From assembly GCA_021784595.1 (NCBI GenBank), contig JAJYHT010000071.1, forward strand, positions 1 to 52,285: a DNA stretch of 52,285 bases. Direction: 5' to 3'. Shown one piece after another: positions 46,393 to 51,764 of this stretch. The notes beneath the pieces were generated by a model. The model made no database searches. It was not told where the DNA came from and saw only the letters and a list, made by a program, of their open reading frames with translations. The translations under genes and the position numbers were made by a program. This stretch comes from Bacillota bacterium. GTDB lineage: Bacteria > Bacillota > Sulfobacillia > Sulfobacillales > Sulfobacillaceae. Each line of letters starts with the position of its first letter. Within the stretch, counting starts at the first letter, position 1.

Positions 46393-48708
46393 TTATGCTA
46401 ATATCCACTGCCTGATGTCTTCCGCGGTTACCGGCAGGCGATTGACCATCACGCCGAACGGTTCTAGAGCGTCAGACACCGCATTGACCAGAGCGGCAGG
46501 AGCGCCAATTAACGATCCTTCTCCCATGCCTTTAATGCCGCCTTCGCCCGCTGATGGAGTCACCAAATGCTTGGTCATCATACGGGGCACATCGGTGGCT
46601 TCAGGCAACAGATAATCCATCAACGAGGTGGTTGTTAATTGGCCATCCTCATCATAGCGCAGAGATTCCAAAAAGGCGCTGCCTATACCTTGCGCCACAC
46701 CTCCGTATATCTGTCCCTCGACGATGAGTGGATTGATGAGTCGTCCGCAGTCATTAACCACCACGTAATTGAGCACCTGTACCATACCCGTGCGGATGTC
46801 CACATCTACTTCTGCGACATGGGTGCCATTAGAAAAGCTCACTGAACGCTCAGGTTGATAGCGTGCCACTAATTCGAGCCCAATAGGCATGCCGGCTGGA
46901 ATCCTTTTGACATGAGTATACGCAATTTCTGCCAGTTGCTGAATCGTCATGGCACGGTCCGGAACCCCTGCCACCCAAGCTTGGCCATTGCCCAGCTCAA
47001 TATCTTCTTCGGCTGCCTCCAGCAAGTGAGCTGCTAACTTAACCAACCTTTGCCTCATCTCGCGCCCCGCCACCAATGCGGCTCCACCGCCGATGGGTCC
47101 CGATCGGCTTCCCCCAGTTCCCCCGCCGAAAGGCGCACTGTCTGTATCGCCGTGTAAAATCACAACGTCCTCTACGTTTACCCCAACCTGGTCGGCAATG
47201 AGTTGCGCCATCGTCGTTTCGTGGCCCTGCCCGGTAGGTCCTAGTCCAAAAGCCGCGGTCACCTTCCCGGTCGGTTCTACGCGGATAAAAACGGACTCAT
47301 AACCCACCGAACCCGCTTCTGAAGAAGCCATGGCGGTCGGTTCCACAAATACCGAAATGCCGATACCGCGATATATGCCTTCTTTCCTTAACTCCGTTTG
47401 GCGGGTTCGAAATGTGTCGTATCCTATCAAACCCAAGGCTTCTTCCATCGATTCCCCATAGGATCCCGGGTCATACACCATGCCTGCCGCATTGCGAAAA
47501 GGAAACTGGTCCGGCCGAATCATGTTGATGCGCCGCACTTCAGCCGGATCCCTGCCCACAGCACGTGCCACCCGATCAACAATGCCTTCCTGCACAAAAG
47601 AAGCAATCGGCCCCCATACTCCGCGATAGGCGCCAAGAGGGGTTTTGTTGGAATAGGTACAGTGAATTTCGGTTTCAATATAAGGGATTTGATAGGGTCC
47701 CGGCAAAACCCGAGAGGCCAAGGAAGTCTCCCCAACCGCTCCAGAAAAGGGATAGGCAGGATAGGCGCCGCCATCCGCCATTAGGTGATCTTTAATCGCG
47801 ATGATGCGCCCATCATCTTCAAACGCGACTTCCACCTCATGAATGTCATCCCGAGCATGTACGTCGGTCAACAGCGATTCGGTGCGGTCCGATACCCACT
47901 TGACCGGTTTTCTCAGCTGATGGGCTGCCCACACTACCACAACGTCTTCTGGATAGGTATTGGCCTTCATGCCGAATCCTCCACCCACTTCGGGCACGAT
48001 CACCCGAATTTGGTTTTCGGGCCATCCTAAAAGTTCGGCCAAGTCGCCCCGTATGCGGTGAGGGGATTGGGTCGACGCATAGACCGTCATTCGGCCTGAT
48101 GCGGGATCGGGCATCGCGGCGGTGCCGCGGGGTTCCAACGTGACTGCTGTTTGACGGGTGGTGCGAAAAGTCTCCTGCAGATGGTGGGCGGCGGCGGGGA
48201 AAGCCTCGTCAAACCCCTTAGTGGTATACTTTTTATAGAAAAAGACGTTGGACGCATTTTCGTGCACCCGTCGAGGGTTCTCTGCAATCGACCGGTACAT
48301 ATCCAAAACCGGTTCCAGCGGCTCATAATGTACAGTAACCAATTCTGCCGCATCCTCCGCCACATAGCGATTCTCAGCCACTATTGCCACCACTGGCTCA
48401 CCGACATAGCGCACTTCCCCATGGGCCAACACGGGTTGGCCGACTTCGTAGGCATCTTTTTGCCACAATACGACTGGACAGTCTTCAAAAGCGATGACAG
48501 CTCTTACCCCCGGCGCTGCTTTGGCTGCCTTCGTGTCAATTCCCATAATGCGCGCCGCGGGATAGGGTGAGCGCACAAAAGCCACTTCGAGCATTCCCGG
48601 CACGTCAATATCATCGAGAAACCGTGCCTGCCCCGTTAAAAGTCGCGGATCTTCGACCCGTTTCACCCGAGCTCCCATGAATTGCGGGCGCATTGCTTGC
48701 TCTGTCAT
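46393..48708 (-). CDS. Molybdenum hydroxylase large subunit (CoxL/xanthine dehydrogenase-like)
   Basis: About 771 residues: domain a/b hammerhead at the N-terminus (MGARVKRVEDPRLLTGQARF), then the Moco-binding regions with GGGFGMKANTYPEDVVVVWA, GAYRGVWGPIASFVQEGIVD, FGLGPTGQGHETTMAQLIAD, GGTGGSRSG and the catalytic Glu in GEGSLIGAPAALVNA. The active-site loop reads AYRGVWGP, neither the AYxCSFR of true CO dehydrogenase nor the usual AYRGAGR of form II, so the substrate is unknown. The ATG at 48708 overlaps coxS (ATGA); GGAGG lies upstream. Confidence 0.9.
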   Translation of the reverse strand: MTEQAMRPQFMGARVKRVEDPRLLTGQARFLDDIDVPGMLEVAFVRSPYPAARIMGIDTKAAKAAPGVRAVIAFEDCPVVLWQKDAYEVGQPVLAHGEVRYVGEPVVAIVAENRYVAEDAAELVTVHYEPLEPVLDMYRSIAENPRRVHENASNVFFYKKYTTKGFDEAFPAAAHHLQETFRTTRQTAVTLEPRGTAAMPDPASGRMTVYASTQSPHRIRGDLAELLGWPENQIRVIVPEVGGGFGMKANTYPEDVVVVWAAHQLRKPVKWVSDRTESLLTDVHARDDIHEVEVAFEDDGRIIAIKDHLMADGGAYPAYPFSGAVGETSLASRVLPGPYQIPYIETEIHCTYSNKTPLGAYRGVWGPIASFVQEGIVDRVARAVGRDPAEVRRINMIRPDQFPFRNAAGMVYDPGSYGESMEEALGLIGYDTFRTRQTELRKEGIYRGIGISVFVEPTAMASSEAGSVGYESVFIRVEPTGKVTAAFGLGPTGQGHETTMAQLIADQVGVNVEDVVILHGDTDSAPFGGGTGGSRSGPIGGGAALVAGREMRQRLVKLAAHLLEAAEEDIELGNGQAWVAGVPDRAMTIQQLAEIAYTHVKRIPAGMPIGLELVARYQPERSVSFSNGTHVAEVDVDIRTGMVQVLNYVVVNDCGRLINPLIVEGQIYGGVAQGIGSAFLESLRYDEDGQLTTTSLMDYLLPEATDVPRMMTKHLVTPSAGEGGIKGMGEGSLIGAPAALVNAVSDALEPFGVMVNRLPVTAEDIRQWILA

Positions 48709-49193
48709 CGTGACGCCTCCTTCGAATCCCCAGCTACCTCCAAAATGGCGTCGACGATGAATTGATATCCCGTGCAACGGCATACATTGCCTGACAGCGC
48801 TTCCCGGATCCGGTGCTCATTGGGATGGGGCTCAGTTTCCAAAAGGGCGGTCGCGGTCAGTAACATTCCCGGAGTGCAATACCCGCACTGCAGGGCGTGA
48901 TGGTTCTGAAACGCCTGTTGCAACGGTGTTAAGTCGGGCTTATTTTGGGTAAGGCCCTCCACCGTGGTAATTTGATGCCCTTGGGCCTGAACCGCAAATA
49001 TCAAGCAGCTTCGTTCAGGCTTGCCATCGATAAGGACAGTGCACGCACCACAGACACCTTGTTCGCAACCCACGTGCGTTCCAATCAATCCCACTTGGTG
49101 TCGAATAACATCCGACAGCAGCCATCGCGGTTCGACTTCAACATTGAATGTCTCTCCGTTAATCGTAAGATTAACGGGCATCTTCGTACTCAT
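48705..49193 (-). CDS. Molybdenum hydroxylase [2Fe-2S] small subunit (CoxS-like)
   Basis: 162 residues. The N-terminal plant-ferredoxin domain has the cluster motif CEQGVCGACTVLIDGKPERS with a final Cys, and the C-terminal helical domain has CGYCTPGM and CRCTGY for the second 2Fe-2S cluster. It carries electrons from the molybdenum site of the large subunit to the FAD of the medium subunit. The ATG at 49193 stands very near AAGAGGA; the ATG at 49181 (MPVNLTING) is possible. Confidence 0.95.
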   Translation of the reverse strand: MSTKMPVNLTINGETFNVEVEPRWLLSDVIRHQVGLIGTHVGCEQGVCGACTVLIDGKPERSCLIFAVQAQGHQITTVEGLTQNKPDLTPLQQAFQNHHALQCGYCTPGMLLTATALLETEPHPNEHRIREALSGNVCRCTGYQFIVDAILEVAGDSKEASR

Positions 49194-49199
49194 GTCCTC

Positions 49200-50042
49200 T
49201 TAGTCCCTCCCCCGAATAGCGTGCGCCCCAAAATAGGCTGCACCGACCAAAGCGCTATGCTTTAACGCCCTCTCCGCTATTTCGATTGCCAACGCAATTT
49301 TGTCTTCTGCTACGTCATTCAAAGTCAACTGCTCGAGCGCTTCGCGCCACGAGGTCTCTCGGGCAGGAGGCAGTGCCACCGCAATCCGCTGGGGTTTGTC
49401 CGAAACGCCAAACCAGGTCACAAATCCGGTGCCATCCAAGCAATCTTCTACAAATGCCCCTGCCAACGCAAAGTCTCCCGTGCGACGAGCCACTTCCGCA
49501 AATCCTATGCGAGAAGCCCCTGTGGCGGGAACCCGCGCCCCAACAATCATTTCGTCCGGTTCCAATACCGTCGTGTAATATCCTAAGAAAAACTCTGATG
49601 CCGGTACCCTATGTACTCCTGGGGATCCTTGCACATCAATTTCCGCTTGCAGTGCCACCATCGCTGCGGGCCATTCCGATGCCGGGTCGGCGTGAGCCAA
49701 ACTTCCGCCCAAGGTCCCCCGATTGCGAATCGCCCAGTGTCCAATGTGGCGGGCAGCCACAGTCAGCACCGGAAATTTCTTTTGAATTTCGGGATGGTCG
49801 GCTATTTCCTGATGATGGATCAACGCCCCGAGATCGAGTGTAGAGCCGTCATACTCCACATGGTGGAGCGCCCGGATACCATTAATGTCAATCAAGACAC
49901 TAGGCCGGGCCAACCTAAAATTCATCAACGGAACCAAGCTTTGTCCTCCCGCTATCACCTTGCCATCAGGGGCGTCTTTGAGCCACTGGACCACGTCAGC
50001 CACCGTCGTGGCCTTGCGGTATTCAAACGTAGCCGGTTTCAT
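49200..50042 (-). CDS. Molybdenum hydroxylase FAD-binding medium subunit (CoxM-like)
   Basis: 280 residues. FAD_binding_5 domain with the pyrophosphate loop VIAGGQSLVPLMNFRLARPS and TLGGSLAHADPASEWPAA, then the CO_deh_flav_C domain with a helical C-terminus. It passes electrons from the iron-sulfur subunit to a quinone or other acceptor. The ATG at 50042 has AAGGAGGA upstream. It lies 30 bp after coxE and 6 bp before coxS. Confidence 0.93.
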   Translation of the reverse strand: MKPATFEYRKATTVADVVQWLKDAPDGKVIAGGQSLVPLMNFRLARPSVLIDINGIRALHHVEYDGSTLDLGALIHHQEIADHPEIQKKFPVLTVAARHIGHWAIRNRGTLGGSLAHADPASEWPAAMVALQAEIDVQGSPGVHRVPASEFFLGYYTTVLEPDEMIVGARVPATGASRIGFAEVARRTGDFALAGAFVEDCLDGTGFVTWFGVSDKPQRIAVALPPARETSWREALEQLTLNDVAEDKIALAIEIAERALKHSALVGAAYFGAHAIRGRD

Positions 50043-50072: not shown

Positions 50073-50756
50073 CTACTGCAATCTTTCCCGCAATCTCAGT
50101 AAAGCCATTCCATCGCCGCCGGCAAACATAGCATCCACGTAGCGGAGAGCAACCCGCAAAGCGCGCGTTTTAGGCTGGAAACCGGGAGTCGCCATTAGGG
50201 GATGAATCCACACCATGCGGCGTATGCGTTGCCGCAATCGCGCCAAAGACCAGCCCAACACGTCCGGCGAACCCACATCCCAGCCGTCAGAAATCATCAC
50301 CACCGTGGTACTAGAGGACAACCACCGATTCCCCCACTGTGTGTCAAAAGACAAAATAGCATCCCCAATAGTGGTGCCCGCACCAAACGCATCCAATTTA
50401 CGCAATGTCTTAATCACTTGAGAGAAGGGCTTGTGCATATTTTCTGTAAGATCCACCACGCGGGTTCCGAAAGCGAACACCCCTGCATTACGGTCTTTGA
50501 CCCATTGATACACCCATGGCAGATACAGCGGCACATAGGGCTCCATTGATCCCGATACATCCCATAAAATAACCACTTTTCCTGGCTGCTTCCAGTATGG
50601 GCGCCACAGCACTGGCCAACCTGACTGCCCGCGGCGCGACCAACGGCGAATTGTTTTAGACCAATCGACAGTACGCTGTCCCCGCTTTAATGCGGCCGTG
50701 CGACTGGCACGGTCTCCACTGCCGGGTGGGATGCCAATAAGGCTCCACACCGGCAC
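50073..50756 (-). CDS. CoxE-like VWA domain protein, N-terminally shortened
   Basis: 227 residues from a GTG at 50756. A von Willebrand A domain is clear: MIDAS motif WDVSGSMEPY, the Thr loop GTTIGDAIL and MISDGWDVGSPD. CoxE proteins with CoxD mature the cox-type molybdenum enzyme by sulfuration. CoxE is normally about 390-400 residues; here the N-terminal half is missing. The frame continues upstream to the CoxD stop (TGA 50931-50933) with an acidic SREEEETVQDQEDVGTSPET linker and no ATG, GTG or TTG before 50756, which has no good ribosome-binding site. It shares its frame with coxD. Confidence 0.75.
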   Translation of the reverse strand: MPVWSLIGIPPGSGDRASRTAALKRGQRTVDWSKTIRRWSRRGQSGWPVLWRPYWKQPGKVVILWDVSGSMEPYVPLYLPWVYQWVKDRNAGVFAFGTRVVDLTENMHKPFSQVIKTLRKLDAFGAGTTIGDAILSFDTQWGNRWLSSSTTVVMISDGWDVGSPDVLGWSLARLRQRIRRMVWIHPLMATPGFQPKTRALRVALRYVDAMFAGGDGMALLRLRERLQ

Positions 50757-50930
50757 ACGGTTGGGCCAAGGCTGGACGTCGGTTGTCCCTTCTGTGGCTC
50801 TAGAAGCCCTTTGTCCTCGCAGTACATTGAGATCACGCCGAGTTTCTGGGGACGTGCCAACGTCTTCTTGGTCCTGGACAGTTTCTTCTTCCTCACGTGA
50901 CAGAGAAACCCGCTCCGCCCGAGTTGCAGC

Positions 50931-51764
50931 TCACCCTCTCACCAAGTCGTCGACCTGTCCTATCACAACTTCCATGTCAAGCGCATCTTTGACCACACAC
51001 CCTAAAGTGGCCGCCACCCAGGCACGTGTCCAGCCGGGATTGTCCATCACCTGCTGCGTACGTGCCCAATCGATGGTCTCCGCTAATCCTGGCGGCTTAA
51101 TCAACTGCCAGGAGCGAAGGCATGAAATGCCGTGCACAATTTGTTCAATAACCTCTCGAGGCACACTGGAAGCATATAATTGTGCAATATCCGCCTCACG
51201 TTGAGGATGTGGCCAATCCAAATAGGCATACAAGCACCGTCTGCGCAAAGCGTCACTTAACGCTCGGGTGCGATTGGAAGTCAAAATTGTGACTGGAGCG
51301 GCATCAGCCCGCACGGTACGCCATTCCGGGATAGTTATCTGATGGTCGGCCAAATACTCCAGCAATAAGGCCTCAAATCCTTCATCAGCACGGTCGATCT
51401 CATCAACTAGCAAAACAGCTCCTGGGCTCTTTAATGCTCTCAATAAGGGTCGTTCGAGCAAAAATTCGGCACTGAAAGGATTGATGTCGCCATGTTGGGA
51501 CATCGCCATCAATTGTCGCTGATAGTTCCAGTCGTACAATGCTTGGGATGCGTCCAAGCCTTCATAGCATGACAAACGGATAAGCTCGCGCTGCATGGCG
51601 TGTGCCAGCGCATAAGCCAGTTGGGTTTTGCCACTGCCAGCAGGTCCTTCGATGAGCAGGGGACGCTCTAACTTCACCGCCAGCCCTACCATGGTTGCCA
51701 GGGAATCGTCCACCAAATAGCCCTGGCTCTGCAGTGTAGACGCCCAATCTTCTGTAGTCAACAT
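50931..51764 (-). CDS. CoxD-like MoxR-type AAA+ ATPase
   Basis: 277 residues. Walker A is IEGPAGSGKTQLAYALA, Walker B is AVLLVDEIDRADEGFEALLL, sensor 1 is VTILTSNRTRALSDALRRRC with the Arg finger. The C-terminal helical part ends with VAATLGCVVKDALDMEVVIG, as in CoxD. With CoxE it acts as a chaperone in maturation of the molybdenum site. The ATG has GAGGG 4 bp upstream. First gene of the operon coxD-coxE-coxM-coxS-coxL. Confidence 0.93.
   Translation of the reverse strand: MLTTEDWASTLQSQGYLVDDSLATMVGLAVKLERPLLIEGPAGSGKTQLAYALAHAMQRELIRLSCYEGLDASQALYDWNYQRQLMAMSQHGDINPFSAEFLLERPLLRALKSPGAVLLVDEIDRADEGFEALLLEYLADHQITIPEWRTVRADAAPVTILTSNRTRALSDALRRRCLYAYLDWPHPQREADIAQLYASSVPREVIEQIVHGISCLRSWQLIKPPGLAETIDWARTQQVMDNPGWTRAWVAATLGCVVKDALDMEVVIGQVDDLVRG

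Follow-up and report, generated by a model that had tools for sequence, protein, structure and literature searches.

An invariant in-frame UGA between coxD and a short coxE in an order of Bacillota: a candidate recoded gene

We have analysed a stretch of 52,285 nucleotides from a Bacillota bacterium of the Sulfobacillaceae (contig JAJYHT010000071.1), referred to below as the window, in which the genes of a CoxD-like ATPase and of a short CoxE-type VWA protein share one reading frame and are separated by a single TGA (Table 1). This UGA junction is real and is conserved throughout the order. We think it probable that coxD and the short coxE together form a single recoded gene, from which programmed decoding of the UGA gives both CoxD alone and a CoxD-linker-VWA fusion. 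The UGA would terminate most ribosomes, releasing a complete MoxR-type AAA+ ATPase, and a fraction of them would decode it and continue through the linker and the VWA domain, giving a protein whose domains are arranged as in BchD/ChlD. From this arrangement we infer the decoding of the UGA in the cell, the ratio of the two products and their assembly in a mixed ring, as well as a part in the maturation of the adjacent molybdenum hydroxylase.

Past the coxD stop the frame stays open for 285 codons (50930-50076), without any shift, before it meets a TAG (50073-50075), so that CoxD runs into the CoxE VWA across a single TGA, as a first, sequence-only reading of this DNA had claimed. The upstream product has the AAA+ core, the Walker A (GPAGSGKT) and Walker B (LLVDEIDRAD) motifs and the MoxR-like fold of a MoxR-type ATPase, and matches the AAA_5 and AAA profiles. 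The VWA part scores 116 bits against PF05762, above the cut-off, at residues 357-546 of the fused frame, and contains both DVSGSM and SDGWD; its MIDAS residues are intact, and the stretch that joins it to CoxD is acidic, both in agreement with that reading, which had also counted some 58 codons without ATG, GTG or TTG and seen no ribosome-binding site before the first GTG. The joining stretch is also proline-rich and disordered. The count is correct, and the predicted anti-Shine-Dalgarno pairing of this GTG (codon 59) is only -1.5 kcal/mol. An AlphaFold2 model of the fused frame, built from a 28-row alignment (mean pLDDT 80.6, pTM 0.52), has a confident AAA+ domain (residues 1-276), a linker of low confidence (pLDDT <50 at residues 280-330, 345-365 and 383-392) and the strand and helix elements of the VWA from about residue 395; the UGA residue, 278, comes in it after the last AAA+ helix.

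Table 1. Features of the coxD-coxE junction and of the neighbouring molybdenum hydroxylase genes in the window.
Feature	Positions	Strand	Description
coxD-like gene, MoxR-type AAA+ ATPase	50931..51764	(-)	ORF of 277 aa, C-terminal ...DDLVRG, TGA stop included
In-frame UGA separating AAA+ and VWA parts	50931..50933	(-)	Invariant in 28/28 loci
SECIS-like hairpin GGCGGAG-CGGGUUU-CUCUGUC	50899..50919	(-)	Loop starts 19 nt past the UGA; weak in the window
Acidic/proline-rich linker	50583..50930	(-)	Free of start codons until codon 59; model confidence mostly low
First in-frame ATG/GTG/TTG past the TGA, a GTG	50754..50756	(-)	Codon 59; no Shine-Dalgarno
CoxE-type VWA domain, intact MIDAS	50073..50582	(-)	PF05762; DVSGSM at 50544-50561; TAG stop 50073-50075
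coxM-like FAD-binding subunit, molybdenum hydroxylase	49200..50042	(-)	PF00941; next gene; phase control
coxS-like [2Fe-2S] subunit	48705..49193	(-)	PF01799 and PF00111
coxL-like molybdopterin subunit, xanthine oxidase family	46393..48783	(-)	PF02738 and PF20256

The Cox gene names are used here by homology only. The coxL-like product falls below every NCBIfam cut-off (546 of 991 bits for TIGR02416, 594 of 950 for NF040766), that is, short of a CO dehydrogenase assignment, its best models being that of glyceraldehyde dehydrogenase alpha, at 617 of 790 bits, and some that are CODH-like, and it reads AYRGVWG at the motif where form II CODH has AYRGAGR.

Comparable loci number 28, from 27 genomes (two families, 11 genera) and one MAG contig (L048); 20 of the genomes with a short-CoxE orthologue belong to the window's family (8 genera) and 7 to its sister family (3 genera). 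At all 28 loci coxD ends in TGA and coxE follows in phase 0 with a gap of 0, the frame past the TGA is open for 270-300 codons, and the UGA column (278) is invariant in the protein alignment. The base after the UGA is C at 17 of them. The same loci provide a control, as the stop of coxE itself is TAG in 16, TGA in 7 and TAA in 5, and the phase from coxE to coxM is divided 12/9/6 among the three possibilities. A tree of these proteins requires at least 8 changes of the coxE stop and at least 10 of the coxM phase, against none for the coxD stop and the coxE phase. Common descent alone is insufficient to explain the contrast, and the fact that the TGA was never swapped for a sense codon suggests that both termination and continuation have been kept. 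No homologue with a sense codon or a Cys at the UGA site was found in the order or in samples of 154 genomes from the class and 398 from the phylum, and no short CoxE was found outside the order in those same two samples. Long-frame matches outside the order (L142-L148), considered as possible fusions, were rejected as long-type CoxE.

It had been claimed that CoxE is usually longer at its N-terminus, and two paralogues in the window's own genome (L001 and L003), of 366 and 382 codons from stop to stop, bear this out. The long CoxE paralogues of the same genomes and the CoxE of other phyla measure about 360-510 codons. The long paralogues have ordinary separate starts, most long CoxE genes have an overlap with coxD that is in a different phase, and the coxD genes next to them end in TAA, TAG or TGA. 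The N-terminal domain and start codon of their own that L001 and L003 possess are absent in all 28 short-CoxE orthologues. Of the two origins initially offered for the short gene, readthrough of the TGA to make a fusion is now the best supported, and a deletion of the first half of coxE next to coxD that is private to this genome is refuted, given that the short form is common to all the orthologues found in the order. Comparison with orthologous operons, proposed at that time as a check, found every one of them short, in frame and behind a TGA, with no full-length orthologue, and so the arrangement is not an accident of the window's genome; nor is there a base error to restore a start or a longer CoxE N-terminus, with 28 loci sharing the arrangement.

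The protein part had been thought to be under selection. This is confirmed for the VWA, with dN/dS of 0.05-0.15 where synonymous sites are unsaturated, and for the linker, in which codons 1-58 gave dN/dS of 0.12-0.57, below 1 in 14 of the 14 pairs compared. These rates indicate a linker that is under protein-coding constraint and is translated. The constraint appears to start at the UGA, since the codons that lie, in the two sequences of a sister pair alike, ahead of any start have a pN/pS of 0.50, from 56 codons with few changes, too few for a firm test.

The main rival to a recoded gene, which we regard as rather unlikely, is that the UGA is merely a stop and that the short CoxE is made separately, by reinitiation or internal initiation in the linker after termination of CoxD. 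Translational coupling of adjacent bacterial genes is common (PMC6728339), and good Shine-Dalgarno sequences accompany an in-frame ATG or GTG in L032 (ATG4 behind GAGGAG), L023 and L024 (ATG18), L029 (ATG37), L035 (GTG1) and L185 (GTG3), fair internal starts that make a separate short CoxE possible at those loci. However, the first ATG, GTG or TTG past the TGA varies from codon 1 to codon 72 across loci and its position is not conserved. L028 has none until codon 72, the window none until codon 59, and L030 and L048 none until codon 52; in the window, L028, L030 and L189 much of the linker is without a start having a usable ribosome site, and in L190 the start is likewise missing or unsupported. 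Internal initiation would also leave unexplained why the UGA and phase 0 stay constant while the neighbouring stop and phase drift, and it fits poorly with coding constraint that appears from the UGA onwards.

As for how a recoded coxD-coxE gene would be read, selenocysteine (Sec) is the leading candidate mechanism, probably ahead of a simple leaky reading of the UGA, and as yet unproven. Sec would be inserted by SelB in the lineages that bear a hairpin, and elsewhere a leaky UGA may be read through by near-cognate decoding. The window's genome has a tRNA-Sec with anticodon UCA and a SelB, and its FdhA gene (L135:1738, G000:C54) contains an in-frame TGA with an 8-bp hairpin (loop GGUCU) behind it, which serves as a positive control for Sec coding in this genome. 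With its textbook SECIS hairpin, this FdhA is an unannotated selenoprotein of the window's genome. SelB is above cut-off in 27 of the 27 junction-bearing genomes, most of which also have tRNA-Sec and SelA, versus 11 of 15 others of the order, a difference (one-sided p ~0.012, kinship uncorrected) that gives weak support. We looked for tRNA-Sec without finding it in G001, G002 and G512, and for SelA without finding it in G512. Besides, the selA of the window's genome (G000:C33, L196:1214-1216) has an in-frame TAA after ...LLKVH where its relatives L198-L200 have CAA or CAG, so that this strain may have lost the ability to make Sec, or else the sequence may be in error at this base. A 72-nt stretch of the same genome (G000:C14:39116-39187) is 92% identical to tRNA-Sec in the 3' part of the latter and may be a tRNA-related sequence or a scar of integration; a similar piece is found in G004:C100.

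Hairpins with a small G-bearing loop (GGU, GGA or GGG) about 19 to 25 nt past the UGA were detected in g1, g6, g8, g4 and g276 and in some members of g11, g2 and g277, and in g1, g6 and g8, as in part of g11 and g2, they are among the highest-ranking positions of the frame. The one in the window ranks 12th among 549 positions in the frame and its stability is no better than that of shuffled sequence (z 0.34). Three congeners (L018-L020) have a stronger hairpin, ranking 4th to 8th of 545 positions, and zero synonymous changes in codons 1-22 past the UGA; rates are low there in g8, g2 and g6 too, and the synonymous depletion is strong in g1 and absent in g11 and g277. The helix is paired in 93.8% of cells (6 sequences), with no double compensatory change among these six and with shuffles doing equally well. 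No SECIS-like hairpin was found in L027, L035, L048, L053, L187, L188 and L190, and it is missing at a third of the loci. An Rfam scan of the junction gave no score near the gathering threshold, and around the UGA there is no conserved motif, the flanking residues varying across loci. In the L190/L191 pair, where no SECIS-like hairpin was found, synonymous change across the coxD-coxE frame is at its lowest over codons -8 to +12 around the TGA, and some other RNA element may be present upstream.

With these elements we would put forward, tentatively, a selenium-gated fusion, in which the gain of a VWA arm by a metal-site AAA+ chaperone would hinge on SelB-dependent insertion of Sec at the UGA of coxD, Sec acting as a tether and ratio setter and not in chemistry. 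That Sec insertion is the sole mechanism at all loci and the fusion a conventional selenoprotein, with a chemical role for Sec, seems to us doubtful. The Sec genes, the FdhA control and the presence of the hairpins in several genera favour it, but the lack of the hairpin at a third of the loci, the unconserved flanking residues, the absence of a Cys homologue and the place of the UGA residue at the edge of a disordered linker speak against it. Sec decoding in any form also has to face the window hairpin, which is neither stabler than shuffles nor supported by covariation, the TAA in selA, and the gaps of tRNA-Sec or SelA in G001, G002 and G512.

Decay of coxE into a pseudogene in the window's genome, which the missing N-terminal half and start would suggest if this genome were viewed alone, or a TGA due to sequencing or assembly error, has practically no probability left, being ruled out by 28 independent loci, the low dN/dS of the VWA and its intact MIDAS; equally negligible is a TGA that is a sense codon throughout the lineage, which would make coxD-coxE an ordinary fusion gene, as TGA ends coxE in 7 of the 28 loci and also many long-type coxD genes; and frameshifting at a slippery site is ruled out by phase 0 on both sides of the UGA in 28/28 loci.

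In the BchI/BchD (ChlI/ChlD) and CobS/CobT systems an AAA+ subunit and a second subunit made of AAA+, acidic/proline linker and VWA come together in a mixed ring. Their subunits come from separate genes, and the likeness drawn here to the window is one of working mode. If the coxD UGA is decoded as we propose, some protomers of the AAA+ ring would carry a covalently attached VWA arm, in a ratio set by recoding efficiency, and this fused arm would substitute for docking by the N-terminal domain of the long CoxE. CoxD and the fusion would share one ring, and 30-40% recoding, or a lower readthrough, would give one or two arms per ring. For the Sec system of E. coli, recoding amounts to 30-40% of passages (PMC4513850), and in NorQ/NorD roughly one VWA protein goes with each MoxR hexamer, at a ratio of about 6:1 (PMC9976466), figures that make a mixed ring plausible. 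NorQ and CbbQ (PDB 9qh8, 6l1q), of the NorQ/NorD and CbbQ/CbbO pairs, are the top PDB folds for the AAA+ domain of the model and the closest AAA+ folds solved, and a hexameric ring of either takes up about one VWA partner. NorQ/NorD serves in metal-site maturation (PMC9976466); in both pairs, the VWA partner is separate and has its own N-terminal domain, unlike in the window.

The CoxD/CoxE pair of the Oligotropha carboxidovorans CO dehydrogenase cluster (PMC3471820, PMC4240915) is similar in that a MoxR AAA+ ATPase and a MIDAS VWA protein adjoin M, S and L molybdenum hydroxylase genes. Its CoxE, however, is a separate protein of 399 aa with its own N-terminal half, whereas that of the window is only linker and VWA, in the frame of coxD and behind a UGA. 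A parallel in gene design is the fs-chlD of Mg/Co chelatases (PMC9227772), where one gene yields by recoding an AAA+-only and an AAA+-linker-VWA product, which in our case are predicted from the gene anatomy. But fs-chlD uses ribosomal frameshifting and belongs to the BchI/BchD family, and since the window has an in-frame UGA, no frameshift and a protein of the MoxR/CoxD family, coxD-coxE is not a member of that class. Like selenoprotein genes of the fdhA/fdhF type, coxD-coxE has coding sequence on either side of a conserved in-frame UGA, with Sec genes in most of the genomes that carry it and a SECIS-like hairpin at some of the loci, and it differs from them in the lack of a Cys homologue or UGA-flanking motif and in having complete domains on both sides. 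A complete domain before the UGA means that termination also yields a useful product, unlike in fdhA/fdhF. As a selenoprotein gene, coxD-coxE is a candidate only.

We found no report of a coxD-UGA-coxE arrangement in the literature searched, which covers the field in part. To our knowledge, there are few documented cases of conserved stop-codon readthrough in a bacterial cellular gene that fuses two complete functional domains, and the literature searched gave none. The locus makes it testable whether recoding sets the stoichiometry of a MoxR/VWA chaperone. If Sec is used, the fusion would represent a new family of selenoproteins, one devoid of Cys homologues and of the kind missed by searches that demand them, a limitation of Cys-homologue-based searches that the deep-Sep authors acknowledge (PMC12013277). 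In this order, the N-terminus of automatically annotated coxE is likely to be wrong.
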